Shown here in pieces: positions 12,493 to 27,510 of a DNA stretch of 36,014 nt. The position numbers were made by a program, and so were the translations under genes. The number at the start of each line of letters is the position of its first letter. Positions within the stretch are counted from its first letter, which is position 1. Source of the stretch: a virus; the IMG/VR virus record IMGVR_UViG_3300025133_000334, positions 1 through 36,014 of that record; one strand, written 5' to 3'. The notes beneath the pieces are model-generated. The model had not been told where the DNA came from, made no database searches, and was given only the letters and a program-made list of their open reading frames with translations.

Positions 12493-12674
12493 TTGGTTTT
12501 CTCAACCACTCTAACAGTGACCCATTCGTCCTTGTTCATGGAGTAGAACTCCTCGTTACGTTGCTTCTCTACGTTGTAACGGGAGAACGAAAGTACTCCA
12601 TCGTAACTTGAGAAATCGTCCGCTTCAACCACCATTGTGTTACGTTGTTTTGTAGTCACTTCATAAGTCTTCAT
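12489..12674 (-). CDS. Small hypothetical protein downstream of the reductase
   Basis: I start this at ATG 12674, which overlaps the reductase stop (ATGA) and has GGAG 8 bases upstream. A GTG 9 bases earlier is also in frame. The 61-residue product (MKTYEVTTKQRNTMVVEADD...) looks like a small beta-rich domain with alternating polar and hydrophobic residues, ending VTVRVVEKTK. I recognise no family. Coupling to the reductase suggests shared expression, not necessarily shared function. Confidence 0.7.
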   Translation of the reverse strand: MKTYEVTTKQRNTMVVEADDFSSYDGVLSFSRYNVEKQRNEEFYSMNKDEWVTVRVVEKTK

Positions 12675-14392
12675 TGGCCACACTCCTTATCACCTGTATC
12701 AGGGTCTATGAAGCAAGCTGCACCCTCTTGCTCCTCTGTTGTATTCATGATGCCGTATCTCTTACCGGCAAGTCTGAAGGTTGTGCATCCCTTTAGCTTA
12801 GTCTTCCATGCTGTGTGGTAGATAGACTTGAACTCATCAAACGTAGTGTCATCACCCACATTGATAGTCTTAGATACTGCACTGTCTACGTAGTATTGTA
12901 CAACACCTTGTACATGTAAGTGGTTAATAGGTTCAAGGTCAGCTACAGTCTCACCCTTGATACCGAAGTTACGATAGACGTAGTCTTGCATCTGTACGAT
13001 AGAGGTACCTCCTTCGTTCTGTACAGTACGATCATACTCTAAAGCAAACACAGGCTCAATACCACTAGAGATATTATCAGCAGTGAAACTAATAGTACCC
13101 GTAGGCGCAATGCTAATGAGGTGTGAGTTACGTATTCCTTGATCTTTGATCTTACGCTTGAGGTCTTCGGGTAGTCTTGTAATAAACCCACCATCTAAAT
13201 ACTCCTTCTCTTTGTATGCCGGGAATGAACCCTTCTCCTTGGCTAAGTCTGACGAAGCAGCATAGCATGTGTACGTCAGGGTCTTCATAAGTTTACGGAT
13301 GAACTTGATACTATCAGATGAGCCATAGCGGAACCCTAAGAGAGTGAGGCAGTTAGCAAGACCGGTAATACCAAGCCCCATCCTGCGTTTCCTCTTTGCT
13401 TCCTTAGACTGAGCATCAAGAGGGTACTCAGTCCTATCAATAACATTGTCCATAGCACGAACAACATGAGGGATGTCCTCCTTTAGCTGTTTGAAGTTAA
13501 AGTAGTTCTCCTCCTCTTTTTCAGTAAGGTAAGGGTTGTTTACTACAGTTACGTACTTAACCATATTAAAGCTACCTAACAGACAGGCACCGTAAGGTGG
13601 TAGAGGTTGCTCACCACAGGGGTTAGTGGCCTCAATAGTTTCACAGTAGTGTAGGTTGTTCTCTCTGTTGATCTGATCAATAAAGATCACTCCCGGTTCT
13701 GCCCAGTCCCAGTTGTTACGCATAATCTCATCCCATAGCATGGACGCATCGATAGAGCCATAATCTTTACCACCAAACCTAAGCATGAACGGTAGTTTCT
13801 TAACTACACAGTTCATGAACTCATCAGTTACACCTATAGAGATGTTGAAGTTAGTTAGGCGGTTGTCGTTCTTCTTAGCCCGTATAAACTCCTCAATGTC
13901 AGGATGATCTATACGTAGCACACCCATCATGGCCCCTCGTCGGTGTCCTGATGAAACAATGACACTACATACTGCATCATAGATTTGCATGAATGATACA
14001 GGGCCACTAGCAGAACTACCAAGAGACACAATACGATCACCACTAGGGCGAATACGACTGAAATCAAACCCAATACCACCTCCTCGACGCATCGTTTCAG
14101 CAGCTTCACTGGCTCGTTGCATGATAGTGTCCATAGAGTCTTCGATGTTACCGGAAACAAAGCAGTTGTACGCAGTAATACTCCTTGGAGACCCCATCGC
14201 GGATTGTACACGGCCCGCTGCCATATACCTTTGATCCATGATAATGTCTTTGTAACTCTTCCTGTGTTCATCAGTATCTCCCATTGCCGCTGCCTCTCTA
14301 GCTTTGGCTTCTTCAAACGATTCATTGGGTAGCCTGTACTTCATAGCGTGTAGCTCTGAACAGGCAGGTACTTGTGGTCCATACTTACTCAT
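12671..14392 (-). CDS. nrdJ: Class II (adenosylcobalamin-dependent) ribonucleotide reductase
   Basis: The enzyme makes deoxyribonucleotides from ribonucleotides for phage DNA synthesis. With the ATG 14392 start (573 residues) the thiyl cysteine is Cys259 in NPCGE, with Glu261. Cys270 (YGACLLGS) and Cys77 (YNCF) fit the redox pair; the 11-residue gap between Cys259 and Cys270 is that of class II enzymes. APTGTISF and a C-terminal C-x10-C (ACFIDPDTGDKEC) also match. Class II enzymes need B12, so the host must supply cobalamin. No NrdB-like or activase gene is present. An in-frame ATG at 14416 is possible but has no ribosome site; 14392 overlaps a small upstream gene as ATGA. Confidence 0.95.
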   Translation of the reverse strand: MSKYGPQVPACSELHAMKYRLPNESFEEAKAREAAAMGDTDEHRKSYKDIIMDQRYMAAGRVQSAMGSPRSITAYNCFVSGNIEDSMDTIMQRASEAAETMRRGGGIGFDFSRIRPSGDRIVSLGSSASGPVSFMQIYDAVCSVIVSSGHRRGAMMGVLRIDHPDIEEFIRAKKNDNRLTNFNISIGVTDEFMNCVVKKLPFMLRFGGKDYGSIDASMLWDEIMRNNWDWAEPGVIFIDQINRENNLHYCETIEATNPCGEQPLPPYGACLLGSFNMVKYVTVVNNPYLTEKEEENYFNFKQLKEDIPHVVRAMDNVIDRTEYPLDAQSKEAKRKRRMGLGITGLANCLTLLGFRYGSSDSIKFIRKLMKTLTYTCYAASSDLAKEKGSFPAYKEKEYLDGGFITRLPEDLKRKIKDQGIRNSHLISIAPTGTISFTADNISSGIEPVFALEYDRTVQNEGGTSIVQMQDYVYRNFGIKGETVADLEPINHLHVQGVVQYYVDSAVSKTINVGDDTTFDEFKSIYHTAWKTKLKGCTTFRLAGKRYGIMNTTEEQEGAACFIDPDTGDKECGQ

Positions 14393-14493
14393 GGTCTTTT
14401 CCATTGTTTTATCCATAGATAGTTATCAAGTTTATGTATCCCTCTGGCAAACATACGTACAGGGTATGATCTCCAGAAGTACTTACGTATCAT
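14389..14493 (-). CDS. Possible 34-residue basic protein between DUF3310 and reductase genes
   Basis: This short frame (MIRKYFWRSYPVRMFARGIH then KLDNYLWIKQWKRP) is rich in Arg, Lys, Trp and Tyr. Its ATG lies 11 bases inside the end of the upstream gene, with AAGGAA just upstream. Its TGA overlaps the reductase ATG at 14392 (ATGA). These junctions match the coupling seen across this operon and explain the otherwise empty 90-base gap. No family is recognised. It may be a leader peptide or a small nucleic-acid-binding protein. Confidence 0.5.
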   Translation of the reverse strand: MIRKYFWRSYPVRMFARGIHKLDNYLWIKQWKRP

Positions 14494-22005: not shown

Positions 22006-22029
22006 TGCTTTTCTCTCTTCTTAAGTTGT

Positions 22030-22095
22030 CTTAAGTAGTCATAAGGAGTATAAACTTAAAGTTATCAAACTAAGTTATCCTTATGACTACTTAAG
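22030..22095. repeat. Perfect 18-bp inverted repeat between early genes
   Basis: cttaagtagtcataagga (22030-22047) is repeated exactly in reverse complement at 22078-22095, around a 30-base AT-rich loop. The loop itself has a 6-bp aactta/taagtt pair. As RNA this is a long perfect hairpin in the early transcript; as DNA it is a large operator-like palindrome. No T-run follows, so a processing site (RNase III-like) or an operator is more likely than a simple terminator. Confidence 0.75.
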
Positions 22096-23418: not shown

Positions 23419-24036
23419 TTAGTGTTTCCTATAGGCTACATTCTTGACCTGTTTAGACCAACATGCACGACATTGGTCACATTTACCGCCTTGTTGAGGT
23501 GCTGGACACTCATGCCCTATAGCTTCCCCCACCTTGTCAAATACAGTAGACGTATTGAGTCCATTAGGGGCGATACCGTTAACCTTAGAACCACTCAGGC
23601 GAACCACTAGGTTATCCGGCAATTCAACCCCTTTGAGCATATCGCGTTCCTGAGTAGGTAACCAGTGGTTGACCTGAGGTGTTAACCTAGCGACACGTAC
23701 AATGGCCATTAGCATCTTTTTAGACTGTAAATCACCACTATCAAACCAGCGATGGTAACTTGTCCCGTTACGTTCTATTTGAAATACCATTGCCTGAACC
23801 CATTGTTCCGTCCTGGCTCTATTCCACTTCTCCAGATTAGCTTTCCATCCTTTGTCTACACTAGGGCGCAGTTTCTGCAGTTTCCTAGCGTAGCATTGAT
23901 TGCATGGAGTACCTTTAACCATGGCAAGCTTTGAACCTGTTTTACAAGCGAATGCGTCAATGGCGTAGCTTGTCCCTGGCATTTTAGAATTACCCTTGGA
24001 TACTTTACCGAATTCAATTGCTTCTTTAACTAACAT
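23419..24036 (-). CDS. Gp88-like (gene product 88 / DUF7227) cysteine-motif protein
   Basis: This 205-residue protein has the recognisable run of the phage Gp88 family: GTPCNQCYARK near the start, then YHRWFDSGDLQS, WLPTQERDM, VVRLSGSKV, and a C-terminal CPAPQQGGKCDQCRACW. Seven cysteines in CxxC arrangements suggest an iron-sulphur or zinc site. The biochemical role of the family is not established to my knowledge. ATG 24036 has AAAGG at good spacing and overlaps the upstream gene by 11 bases; a GTG at 24045 is also possible. Confidence 0.82.
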   Translation of the reverse strand: MLVKEAIEFGKVSKGNSKMPGTSYAIDAFACKTGSKLAMVKGTPCNQCYARKLQKLRPSVDKGWKANLEKWNRARTEQWVQAMVFQIERNGTSYHRWFDSGDLQSKKMLMAIVRVARLTPQVNHWLPTQERDMLKGVELPDNLVVRLSGSKVNGIAPNGLNTSTVFDKVGEAIGHECPAPQQGGKCDQCRACWSKQVKNVAYRKH

Positions 24037-24301
24037 TGGTTTCACCTTTCGCTTTTTCCCATATATCCATTAATACGTTATCGACATTATCCTTACCCCA
24101 ACGATTATATATAACCCTTAGGAAACTATGGCTTTGTCCGTAAACAGGGTGCATATATTGTCCCCATCCGTTAGGTGTCCCATTAATTAAGTCGACGTAT
24201 TCTTGGCAATCTCTATTCATATCCATTGTACTATACCCTTCCTTTGTTGCATTATTCATGCATATTTTAACAAGCTTATCTCTATACCTATTGCGTATCA
24301 T
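24026..24301 (-). CDS. 91-residue hypothetical protein
   Basis: Start is ATG 24301 (a TTG two codons earlier is in frame). The product has a basic N-terminus (MIRNRYRDKLVKICMNNATK), then WGQYMHPVYGQSHSFLRVIY and a helical end (NVLMDIWEKAKGETNVS). No family is recognised. It overlaps the Gp88-like gene by 11 bases, so the two may work together. Confidence 0.65.
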   Translation of the reverse strand: MIRNRYRDKLVKICMNNATKEGYSTMDMNRDCQEYVDLINGTPNGWGQYMHPVYGQSHSFLRVIYNRWGKDNVDNVLMDIWEKAKGETNVS

Positions 24302-24885: not shown

Positions 24886-24990
24886 TAGTTAAAGCATGTT
24901 TAGCTATATTACTATTGAATAACAGGATTGCCCTTATGTTATACCTTATCGTGCTATACAATATATATATACATCCCTGCAGTGTGTCCC

Positions 24991-25024
24991 TGAGATGACC
25001 TGAGATGACCTGAGATGACCTGAG
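24991..25024. repeat. 10-bp tandem repeat, 3.4 copies
   Basis: tgagatgacc is repeated three times exactly, followed by tgag. A 10-bp period places each copy on nearly the same face of the helix, as for a cooperatively bound protein. Confidence 0.9.
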
Positions 25025-25082
25025 AATAACCATACTCATGCATACTTTCTCCTCAAGTTCTCCCCATGCAATCCACATGCCA

Positions 25083-25134
25083 CTCCTTAGGTCTACCTAT
25101 GCAACCACTGCATACCTGCCATGCACCTAAGGAG
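25083..25134. repeat. 10-bp inverted repeat (ctccttaggt / acctaaggag)
   Basis: ctccttaggt at 25083-25092 is the exact reverse complement of acctaaggag at 25125-25134. The 32 bases between hold several atgca-type words. The right arm belongs to a 16-bp direct repeat, acctaaggagtaccta, at 25125-25140 that recurs at 25525-25540 just upstream of the strong rightward promoter. Confidence 0.8.
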
Positions 25135-25184
25135 TACCTAGGTGGCACCAATGTTGCACCTATGCAATAACCATGCCAAGTTCT

Positions 25185-25295
25185 ACCTATGTAACTACCT
25201 ATGTAGTTACTTAGGACACCTATGTTGACCTATGTAACTACCTATGTAGTTACTTAGGACACCTATGTTGACCTATGTAACTACCTATGTAGTTG
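25185..25295. repeat. 43-bp tandem repeat, 2.6 copies, with inner palindrome
   Basis: Copies begin at 25185, 25228 and 25271 (the last truncated at 25295) with no differences in the shared part. Each full copy contains the hairpin-capable gtaactac-ctat-gtagttac and three CCTATG words. Counting two more upstream copies, CCTATG occurs ten times between 25096 and 25289, at spacings of 12, 21 and 10 in the array. This is iteron-like. Confidence 0.92.
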
Positions 25296-25373
25296 TGGGG
25301 GGGGACCCCTGGAGCCTAAGGATAATTATTGTAATACACTCAGGATCACATGGGAAGCAATTTGGACTCCCTA

Positions 25374-25416
25374 GGTCTACTTAGGTCTACTTAGGTCTAC
25401 TTAGGTCAACATAGGT
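25374..25416. repeat. 10-bp tandem repeat, 4.3 copies
   Basis: ggtctactta occurs three times in tandem, then ggtcaacata (two changes) and ggt. The 10-bp period is the same as in the unrelated repeat at 24991-25024. The two phased arrays bracket the 43-bp repeats. Confidence 0.9.
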
Positions 25417-25499: not shown

Positions 25500-25527
25500 T
25501 TGACAAGTGGATATTTGCGGGTATACC
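25500..25527 (+). promoter_or_regulatory. Weak rightward promoter candidate
   Basis: A perfect TTGACA (25500-25505), 16 bases, then TATACC (25522-25527). The -10 box matches only 4 of 6, so this is a second-rank candidate beside the stronger promoter at 25579-25607. Confidence 0.35.
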
Positions 25528-25578: not shown

Positions 25579-25607
25579 TTGACTTTTGGTGCTAAATATG
25601 CTATAAT
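25579..25607 (+). promoter_or_regulatory. Strong rightward sigma-70-like promoter for the late arm
   Basis: TTGACT (25579-25584), a 17-base spacer and a perfect TATAAT (25602-25607) form the best promoter on the plus strand here. Transcription would start near 25614, giving a 246-base leader before the small terminase ATG. The copy of acctaaggagtaccta at 25525-25540 lies just upstream, a plausible regulator site. Confidence 0.82.
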
Positions 25608-25859: not shown

Positions 25860-26243
25860 ATGTCTACTACTAAAGACGACTCGACACTACCTACGAAAAA
25901 GAGACCTCCGGGGAATCCTAATTTCTATAAAGGTATGCCCCCTATGAATCCCGAAGGCAGGAAGAAGGGTTCTGTAAATAAATACACTAAGTTGTCCAGA
26001 AAGTTAATGTCGGACAGGGGTCCTGAGATTGTCAATAAAGTTATTGAGATGGCACTTGAGGGTGATCGACATTGTTTAAAGATGTGTCTAGACAGAATTA
26101 TTCCGACTTCCAAGGCAGTTGAGATTACCCATGACCACCAGGACCTAGGTATTAATATCATAGTTGAAGGTGTTAAGGCCATAGAGAAGAAGGAAGAGGA
26201 AGAGTTTAAGATCATTGAGGGCGAAGTCCTAGACAATGGCTGA
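25860..26243 (+). CDS. terS: Terminase small subunit
   Basis: This 127-residue protein would recognise phage DNA and start packaging. The N-terminal NPEGRKKGSVNKYTKLSRK is the basic 'NPxGRpkGs.nk' motif common at the start of small terminases (DUF5681-like). The core GPEIVNKVIEMALEGDRHCL, then MCLDRIIP, is a typical helix pair. The C-terminus is acidic (EKKEEEEFKIIEGEVLDNG). It overlaps the large subunit gene by 8 bases. AAAGGAA supplies a ribosome site. It lies directly beside the repeat region, relevant if that is a packaging site. Confidence 0.85.
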   Translation: MSTTKDDSTLPTKKRPPGNPNFYKGMPPMNPEGRKKGSVNKYTKLSRKLMSDRGPEIVNKVIEMALEGDRHCLKMCLDRIIPTSKAVEITHDHQDLGINIIVEGVKAIEKKEEEEFKIIEGEVLDNG

Positions 26244-27510
26244 TCTTAAAGTCTCACTTCATGAGGCACAAATGGAGATATTTAAGTCTCCAAAGAGGTT
26301 CAAAGTGGCCTCATGTGGTCGTAGGTTCGGTAAGTCCTACTTAGCGGCATGGGTCCTAATAATCAAGGCCCTACAGTCAACAGATAAGGACGTATTTTAT
26401 GTTGCCCCTACATTCCAACAGGCCAAGGACATCCTTTGGTCCATCCTTAAGACGGTTGGTAAGGACGTAATTAAGTCGGCACATGAGAATACTGCAACAC
26501 TTACTCTGATTAATGATAGGAAGATATACTTAAAGGGGTCAGACAGGCCAGATACGTTACGAGGTGTAGGTCTTAGTTATGTCGTAATGGATGAATATGC
26601 CTCAATGAAGCCTGAGGTCTGGGAGATGATCCTTAGGCCCACTCTGGCTGACGTTAAGGGTGAGGCTTTATTCATAGGGACTCCTGCAGGTAAGAACCAC
26701 TTTTGGCAACTTTGGGTTGACGCACAGAAGGAAGAGAATGCAGAGGAGTGGGAAGCATTTCAGTTCAATTCGACGGACAATACCTTTCTGGACCCAAAGG
26801 AGATCGAAGCAGCAAAGAAGAATATGTCTACCCAAGCCTTCAGACAAGAGTTTGAGGCAACATTTGAGTCCTTCACAGGAGGAGTCTTTAGGGAAGAATG
26901 GGTTAGATACGTAGACGAAGATAATTTTGATGACGTAAAGACCCAAGGGCATTATGTCATCTCAGTCGATCCGGCGGGTTATGAGAAGGCCAATAAGGAC
27001 AGAGGTCTAAAGAGTTCTAAGCTGGACGAAACTGCAATAAGTGTAGTTAAGATAGTCCAAGACGAATGGTTAGTCAAAGATATACATCATGGTAGATGGG
27101 GTATTAAGGAGACAGCCAGTAAGATTTTGGACATTGCGGAGGACGTAAAAGCCACTACGGTAGGGATTGAGTCAGGCGCTCTTAAGAACGCCATTATGCC
27201 CTACATAGAGGACGAGATGAGAATACGTGGTAGGTGGGTCAATATTACTGACGTTAGCCACGGTGGTAAGAAGAAGCAGGACAGGATAGTATGGGCGCTA
27301 CAGGGGCGTATGGAACACGGTAAGATCAAGTTCCGTAAGGCAGATTGGAACCATCACTTTGTTTCACAAATGCTTGACTTTCCTTCACCTTTGGCCCATG
27401 ATGACTTACTTGACTCACTGGCCTACATAGACCAAGTTTCAGTAGCGGATTTCGCTACATCAATAGATTTAGAGGAATGGGAACCAATGGACACCGTATC
27501 GGGGTATTAA
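26236..27510 (+). CDS. terL: Terminase large subunit
   Basis: This 424-residue protein is the packaging motor and headful/cos nuclease. ATPase motifs: Walker A GRRFGKS (28-34), Walker B YVVMDEYA (Glu120) and coupling motif GTPAG (148-152). Nuclease acidic residues: Asp245 (ISVDPAG), Glu312 (VGIESGA) and the C-terminal HDDLLDSLAYID. The length is normal for short forms of TerL in podoviruses and GTA-like systems. It is the most useful marker for placing the phage. Confidence 0.96.
   Translation: MADLKVSLHEAQMEIFKSPKRFKVASCGRRFGKSYLAAWVLIIKALQSTDKDVFYVAPTFQQAKDILWSILKTVGKDVIKSAHENTATLTLINDRKIYLKGSDRPDTLRGVGLSYVVMDEYASMKPEVWEMILRPTLADVKGEALFIGTPAGKNHFWQLWVDAQKEENAEEWEAFQFNSTDNTFLDPKEIEAAKKNMSTQAFRQEFEATFESFTGGVFREEWVRYVDEDNFDDVKTQGHYVISVDPAGYEKANKDRGLKSSKLDETAISVVKIVQDEWLVKDIHHGRWGIKETASKILDIAEDVKATTVGIESGALKNAIMPYIEDEMRIRGRWVNITDVSHGGKKKQDRIVWALQGRMEHGKIKFRKADWNHHFVSQMLDFPSPLAHDDLLDSLAYIDQVSVADFATSIDLEEWEPMDTVSGY

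Follow-up and report, generated by a model that had tools for sequence, protein, structure and literature searches.

Podophage genomes with direct terminal repeats (DTRs), and with shorter repeats beside these ends, are already known. T7 has CCTAAAG repeats at a spacing of 13 nt around the left terminal repeat; in SP6 the repeated word is CTTAGT and the spacing is 12 nt. In the T7-like Yersinia fPS phages, repeats of 10 bp and 12 bp and poly-C tracts were described in the DTR, with a variable copy number (PMC5923468). P-SSP7 was assembled as a circle until sequencing of its ends revealed a 206-bp DTR; how T7-like phages complete the left end is described as incompletely understood (PMC3350473). 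The locus described in this work belongs to an uncultured virus (IMG/VR record IMGVR_UViG_3300025133_000334; the 36,014 nucleotides analysed are called “the window” below), and had been interpreted in an earlier sequence-only reading as an iteron array of a kind normally missing from T7-like phages. This last statement was wrong, since T7, SP6 and the Yersinia phages carry such repeats.

The nearest podophage capsid relatives of the window phage were found in Saffermanviridae, a family of freshwater cyanophages, though the major capsid protein was only ~28-37% identical. All six of the examined Saffermanviridae records with end repeats (A-4L, PP, LPP-2, Pf-WMP3, Pf-WMP4 and TR020) had the two-arm gene order of the window phage and were linear genomes with the DTR at the early/late junction: exact repeats of 810 bp (A-4L), 237 bp (LPP-2), 234 bp (Pf-WMP3), 216 bp (TR020) and 107 bp (Pf-WMP4), and a near-exact repeat of 225 bp in PP. 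A G6 block was located exactly 26 nt from the early-side end in 4 of the 6 (A-4L, LPP-2, Pf-WMP3 and PP), and 25 and 19 nt from it in TR020 and Pf-WMP4 respectively. The end fell after the G-block, not inside it, and in an AT-rich stretch. In Wumptrevirus (PP, LPP-2 and Pf-WMP3) a conserved block, AGCACACTGTGGAT, followed the cut on the late side, which is the place of the core sequence described below; no common motif was seen at the other DTR boundary in Saffermanviridae. Phased arrays were weak or absent in these DTRs, except in TR020, so that the G-block signal does not depend on them.

Comparable G-runs were present at the ends of other DTR podophages. The distance from the last G to the early end was 25 nt in T7, T3 and phiKMV, 26 nt in P-SSP7 and gh-1, 24 nt in Syn5 and K1-5, 28 nt in LUZ19 and SP6, and 31 nt in N4; the run was G4 in SP6 and K1-5, and G5-G9 in the other eight. 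A run of G4-G9 was thus present in all 16 cultured phages (Autographiviridae, Saffermanviridae and Schitoviridae), separated from the early end by 19-31 nt and in most cases by 24-28 nt. Runs of five or more Gs were found 19-31 nt from the end in 14 of the 16 records, whereas only 0.8% of points placed at random in the terminal 1 kb had such a run. A binomial figure based on these values overstates the evidence, as the records fall into few lineages and are not independent, but the rule itself is plain. Genome ends were taken as stated in the records, and from experiment in the case of P-SSP7 (PMC3350473). Within the terminal 80 nt of the DTR podophages, the G-run near the early end often stood in the context CTAYGGGGG.

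Organization of the early/late junction

The early arm of the window (primase-helicase, PolA, Cas4-type exonuclease) and its late arm (TerS, TerL, portal, scaffold, capsid, tail) converge near 12 kb. By comparison with the gene order of the six Saffermanviridae, the site, from which the two arms diverge, is the early/late junction. The phage seems to work alike, but its core proteins are not similar enough for it to be placed in that family. The early arm ended with a gene for the ribonucleotide reductase large subunit (12671-14416) and had one for a GP88-family protein (23419-24045) near its start. The latter matched only three contigs, all of them 100% identical and uninformative for end mapping, and judged by this contig search it does not appear to be family-wide. 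An identical strain (IMGVR_UViG_3300025072_000041) joined the end of the window to its start via 2302 bp absent from the window. Positions 1 and 36014 are therefore not physical ends, the genome is ~38.3 kb long, and the window is not a closed genome.

The junction and the adjoining terminase genes comprised the following features:

24885-24856, minus strand: leftward promoter candidate (promoter scan)
24989-25025, no strand: 10-bp tandem array CCTGAGATGA, 3.7 copies
25029-25056, minus strand: tentative leftward early promoter TTGAGG-16-TATGGT, weaker, below the scan threshold (read from the sequence)
25082-25182, no strand: degenerate phased words CCTTAGG, CCTATGCA and CACCTATGCA, left of the 43-bp repeat
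25185-25294, no strand: 43-bp repeat (TRF), the phased array of the window phage, in exact copies whose CCTATG words are spaced 10/12/21
25297-25309, plus strand: G-block GGGGGGGG-A-CCCC, family form GGGG(A/G)GGNCCC
25305-25330, plus strand: spacer of 26 nt from the last G to the predicted early-side end, AT-rich at its end (extrapolated from cultured DTR podophages)
25338-25366, plus strand: near-invariant core ACTCAGGATCACATGGGAAGCAATTTGGA, its 5' half common to the arrays and its 3' half unique
25372-25416, no strand: 10-bp tandem array CTTAGGTCTA, 4.5 copies, on the late side of the core
25500-25527, plus strand: candidate rightward promoter TTGACA-16-TATACC, with TTGAC at a similar place in relatives (read from the sequence)
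25579-25607, plus strand: strong rightward sigma-70-type promoter TTGACT-17-TATAAT, extended -10, 11/12 (promoter scan)
25860-26243, plus strand: terS candidate, DUF5681, 127 aa, overlapping terL
26236-27510, plus strand: terL

The 43-bp direct repeat had the highest TRF score in the window (220; 2.6 copies, 100% match), in agreement with the two and a half exact copies noticed earlier. The ten CCTATG words of the sequence-only reading were also recovered, all on the plus strand (25096, 25159, 25186, 25198, 25219, 25229, 25241, 25262, 25272 and 25284), with successive spacings of 63, 27, 12, 21, 10, 12, 21, 10 and 12 nt. A perfect inverted repeat with 8-bp arms (GTAACTAC-CTAT-GTAGTTAC) was present in each of the first two units, as had been claimed for every unit, but the truncated third copy had perfect arms of only 6 bp. 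The block of eight Gs was confirmed at 25297-25304, followed by ACCCC. That reading had overlooked the 10-bp arrays at 24989-25025 and 25372-25416 and, chiefly, the 29-nt core at 25338-25366. The reverse complement of CCTGAGATGA, the unit of the first of these arrays, is CTCAGGTCAT, a degenerate copy of the core 5' half.

Six-mers recurring at 10, 11, 20, 21 or 22 nt were strongly concentrated at the junction: 93 of the 182 cases in the whole 36 kb fell within the 700 bp between 24900 and 25600, so that the junction repeats are not due to chance. A weak 10-bp tandem repeat of similar style (TCTTAAGTAG, 3.1 copies) was seen in the early-arm intergenic gap 22019-22049.

Of the outward promoters proposed earlier, a strong site was found on the rightward side, and candidates, one of them weaker, on the leftward side. 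In many relatives a motif like TTGAGG-16-TATGGT stood ~300 nt to the left of the core. Over the region as a whole, promoter-like sites were no commoner than in shuffled sequence (7 found vs. 6.1 expected).

The G8 run lay 0.56 kb from the terS start (25860), close to the 0.6 kb previously given. The terS candidate encoded a strongly conserved NPxGRPKGSxNK stretch which resembles an AT-hook. The TerS protein had no match in the phage collection, and its structural model was of low confidence (pLDDT 51, 8 sequences) and hence was not used for a fold search. The best PDB match of TerL was 4zni, which we take to be the P74-26 ATPase. An alignment of TerL against genome contigs for host assignment returned no relative. 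SSU5 and Vibrio phage 1.168.O, whose TerL reached 45% identity across half of the protein, were discarded as comparators, as they have other TerS types and their site is not comparable.

Conservation of the G-block, core and array in relatives

Eighty relatives were retrieved with TerL, and no close relative of the window was present among 50,697 phage records. In BLAST comparisons of the intergenic region, positions 25334-25366 were ~90% identical where terS DNA was only ~70-75% identical. The consensus of the core over 41 non-redundant relatives was ACTCAGGACCACATGRGAAGCAATTTGGA (29 nt), with the invariant columns CTCA....CACAT..GA.G.AATT. The distance from the first C of the C-run to CTCA was 30-35 nt in 56 non-redundant relatives from IMG/VR, a set which includes relatives with only ~70% TerL identity, and the sequence of the spacer between them varied. 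The core occurred once per contig in all 77 viral contigs matched with a relaxed pattern, and a terS homologue was located 95-880 nt downstream in nearly all core-bearing contigs, the three exceptions being short loci. An integration or host-derived site was rejected, as the core pattern had no match in 84,980 prokaryote genomes and the ORFs scanned included no recognisable integrase. A structured RNA was likewise rejected, as no Rfam match came near the gathering score of any family.

This conservation bears on the possibility that the junction serves transcriptional control only, as a set of phased operators and a regulator site switching the early and late promoters. Phased repeats are typical of cooperative regulators, and the junction does lie between leftward and rightward promoter candidates, but a core which is single-copy in each genome and invariant where terS diverges argues against such a role, as does the lack of phased recurrences in other intergenic regions (except the weak 10-bp repeat at 22019-22049). 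Control alone would also leave the 30-35 nt spacing to the G-block and the match to genome ends unexplained, and was considered extremely unlikely.

The phased array was conserved in layout. In the 300 nt left of the G-block of 39 non-redundant relatives, six-mers recurred at 10, 11, 20, 22, 30, 38-43 and 50 nt, with counts that reached 40 times those expected from dinucleotide shuffles; a few individual relatives had little or no phased recurrence. The words of the array changed from phage to phage, while its position and helical phasing (10/11 bp) were kept in most relatives. Repeats missing from syntenic relatives had been named in the sequence-only reading as evidence against itself; this was not observed for the layout, although the sequence of the array differed.

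The array words were related to the core. When pooled, they were ~12-fold enriched for 10-mers of the core 5' half, CTCAGGACCACATGAGAAG, in the form of degenerate copies lying mainly on the opposite strand (66 observed vs. 5.3 expected), and showed no enrichment for the core 3' half; in the most distant core-bearing relative of the array set (L114) they were unlike the core. With enrichment for its 5' half and not for its 3' half, the core resembles one strong half-site fused to a unique portion, and the array a row of weaker, phased half-sites. The enrichment of the array in mostly inverted copies of the core 5' half suggests that one protein may bind both. The number of array units is probably variable, since IMGVR_UViG_3300020810_000012, an assembly which closes circularly inside the array, had six copies of a 22-bp unit at one of its ends but three at the opposite end. 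This relative is 36014 bp long, as is the window, apparently by coincidence (TerL only 85% identical).

Phased iteron-like repeats, an AT-rich stretch and divergent arms are also what an iteron-type origin would show, with an early protein binding the repeats, melting the AT-rich spacer and loading the primase-helicase. SPP1 oriL and oriR are likewise built from direct repeats and an AT-rich element (PMC6316719). The cumulative GC-skew minimum, proposed earlier as a check, did fall at the array, but at the same point as the change of coding strand, and is therefore indistinguishable from a strand effect. Among the ORFs compared with Pfam and PHROGs none was assigned to an initiator family, many small early ORFs having no assignment. 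A G-block at a fixed distance from an invariant core would have no obvious part in melting, and an origin would explain neither this spacing nor the match to genome ends. The initiator-bound origin which headed the sequence-only reading was thus considered very improbable, the same junction being the genome end in the syntenic isolates, though a minor origin role for the junction is possible.

Probable role in genome-end formation and packaging

The site is very likely to be the concatemer junction of a podophage with a linear, DTR-bearing genome, where genome ends are made and packaging takes place. This reading is supported by the bipartite element present in 56 relatives, its single copy, its place beside terS and its match to the ends of cultured phages. 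It would very probably be an unusually elaborate version of a known device, and not a new replication origin. A packaging site beside terS had been offered as the second choice in the sequence-only reading, and the conserved core, its single copy and the ends of the syntenic isolates speak for it.

In the proposed mechanism, replication would generate head-to-tail concatemers, and the terminase would recognise each junction via the 29-nt core and the phased half-site array, guided by TerS bound to both. The cut would then fall ~26 nt beyond the G-block, within the AT-rich sequence that immediately precedes the core, at a predicted position of ~25330/25331 which is extrapolated from the 25-26 nt seen in most of the DTR podophages examined. 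It would create the early-arm end, equivalent to the left end of T7, and place the array within or next to the terminal repeat. The G-block, with fixed spacing to the AT-rich stretch and core, was found in the window; the end itself is a predicted position. We infer a DTR in the window phage, the exact position of the cut, and TerS as the protein which binds core and array. DNA binding by TerS would be in keeping with the position of its gene, and its AT-hook-like stretch may possibly contact the invariant AATT of the core 3' half.

The contigs of the relatives closed circularly, as DTR genomes also do (PMC3350473). Their ends clustered loosely over the array (left ends 4-430 nt from the core) with no single-base pile-up, which is weak evidence in metagenomic assemblies; a pile-up is not needed for a DTR, because repeats are collapsed in such assemblies. 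The same data bear on a headful (pac) or cos site, in which TerS would bind the core and TerL would cut at or near the G-block. The element adjoins terS. In its layout, a dyad-like GGG-N-CCC block with an asymmetric core behind it, it recalls the cut site and TerS anchor of HK97, whose TerS binds at +15 to +29 relative to the cut (PMC10370121). The three sets of direct repeats in the SPP1/SF6 pac region (PMC4737164) and the TerL match to 4zni were also counted in its favor. No pile-up of contig ends was found at the G-block, however, and a cos cut inside this block was set aside as unlikely on that account; in addition, the six syntenic Saffermanviridae have DTRs at this place and end after the G-block, not inside it. 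A pac or cos site was therefore judged very unlikely.

As a probable concatemer junction, the locus shares with Saffermanviridae the two-arm order, the location at the early/late boundary and a G-block (G6 in that family), which would likewise precede an AT-rich end, but Saffermanviridae lack the core sequence of the window phage, and their phased repeats are weak or absent, except in TR020. With the left end of T7 and T3 it shares a G-block (25 nt from the early end in T7 and in T3) and short, regularly spaced repeats beside it, whereas T7 differs in its 13-nt repeat period, in its repeat word and in having no 29-nt core. The terminase genes of T7 lie at the far end of a single-direction map. 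SPP1 and SF6 differ from the window phage in their headful packaging, and we know of no G-block rule for them. Like the locus in the window, their pac region has direct repeats around the terS promoter and is recognised by TerS (PMC4737164). The Yersinia fPS phages resemble the locus in their 10-bp and 12-bp repeats, poly-C tracts and variable copy number (PMC5923468), but are Autographiviridae with a phage RNA polymerase, and none was recognised among the ORFs scanned in the window.

As far as the literature searched shows, the new elements are the family-wide bipartite element, with its relation between array and core, and the G-block distance rule across podophage families. No statement of this rule was found in that literature, which consisted mainly of titles and abstracts and had the older subscription work on T7/T3 packaging outside its scope. 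A tentative generalization, with somewhat less than an even chance of being right, is that several families of DTR podophages share a general and ancient left-end signal, a G-block ~25-26 nt from the early end, which the present lineage reads together with a 29-nt core and a helically phased half-site array to which a single ring- or filament-forming protein (TerS) binds.

For this uncultured marine lineage, the junction provides the likely genome ends and hence the correct linear map, and the G-run rule could be used to predict the ends of metagenomic podophages. If causal, the G-run would be a cross-family signal for left-end formation and, if the proposal is true, the G-block, core and array would together offer a sequence-based approach to the duplication of the terminal repeat.
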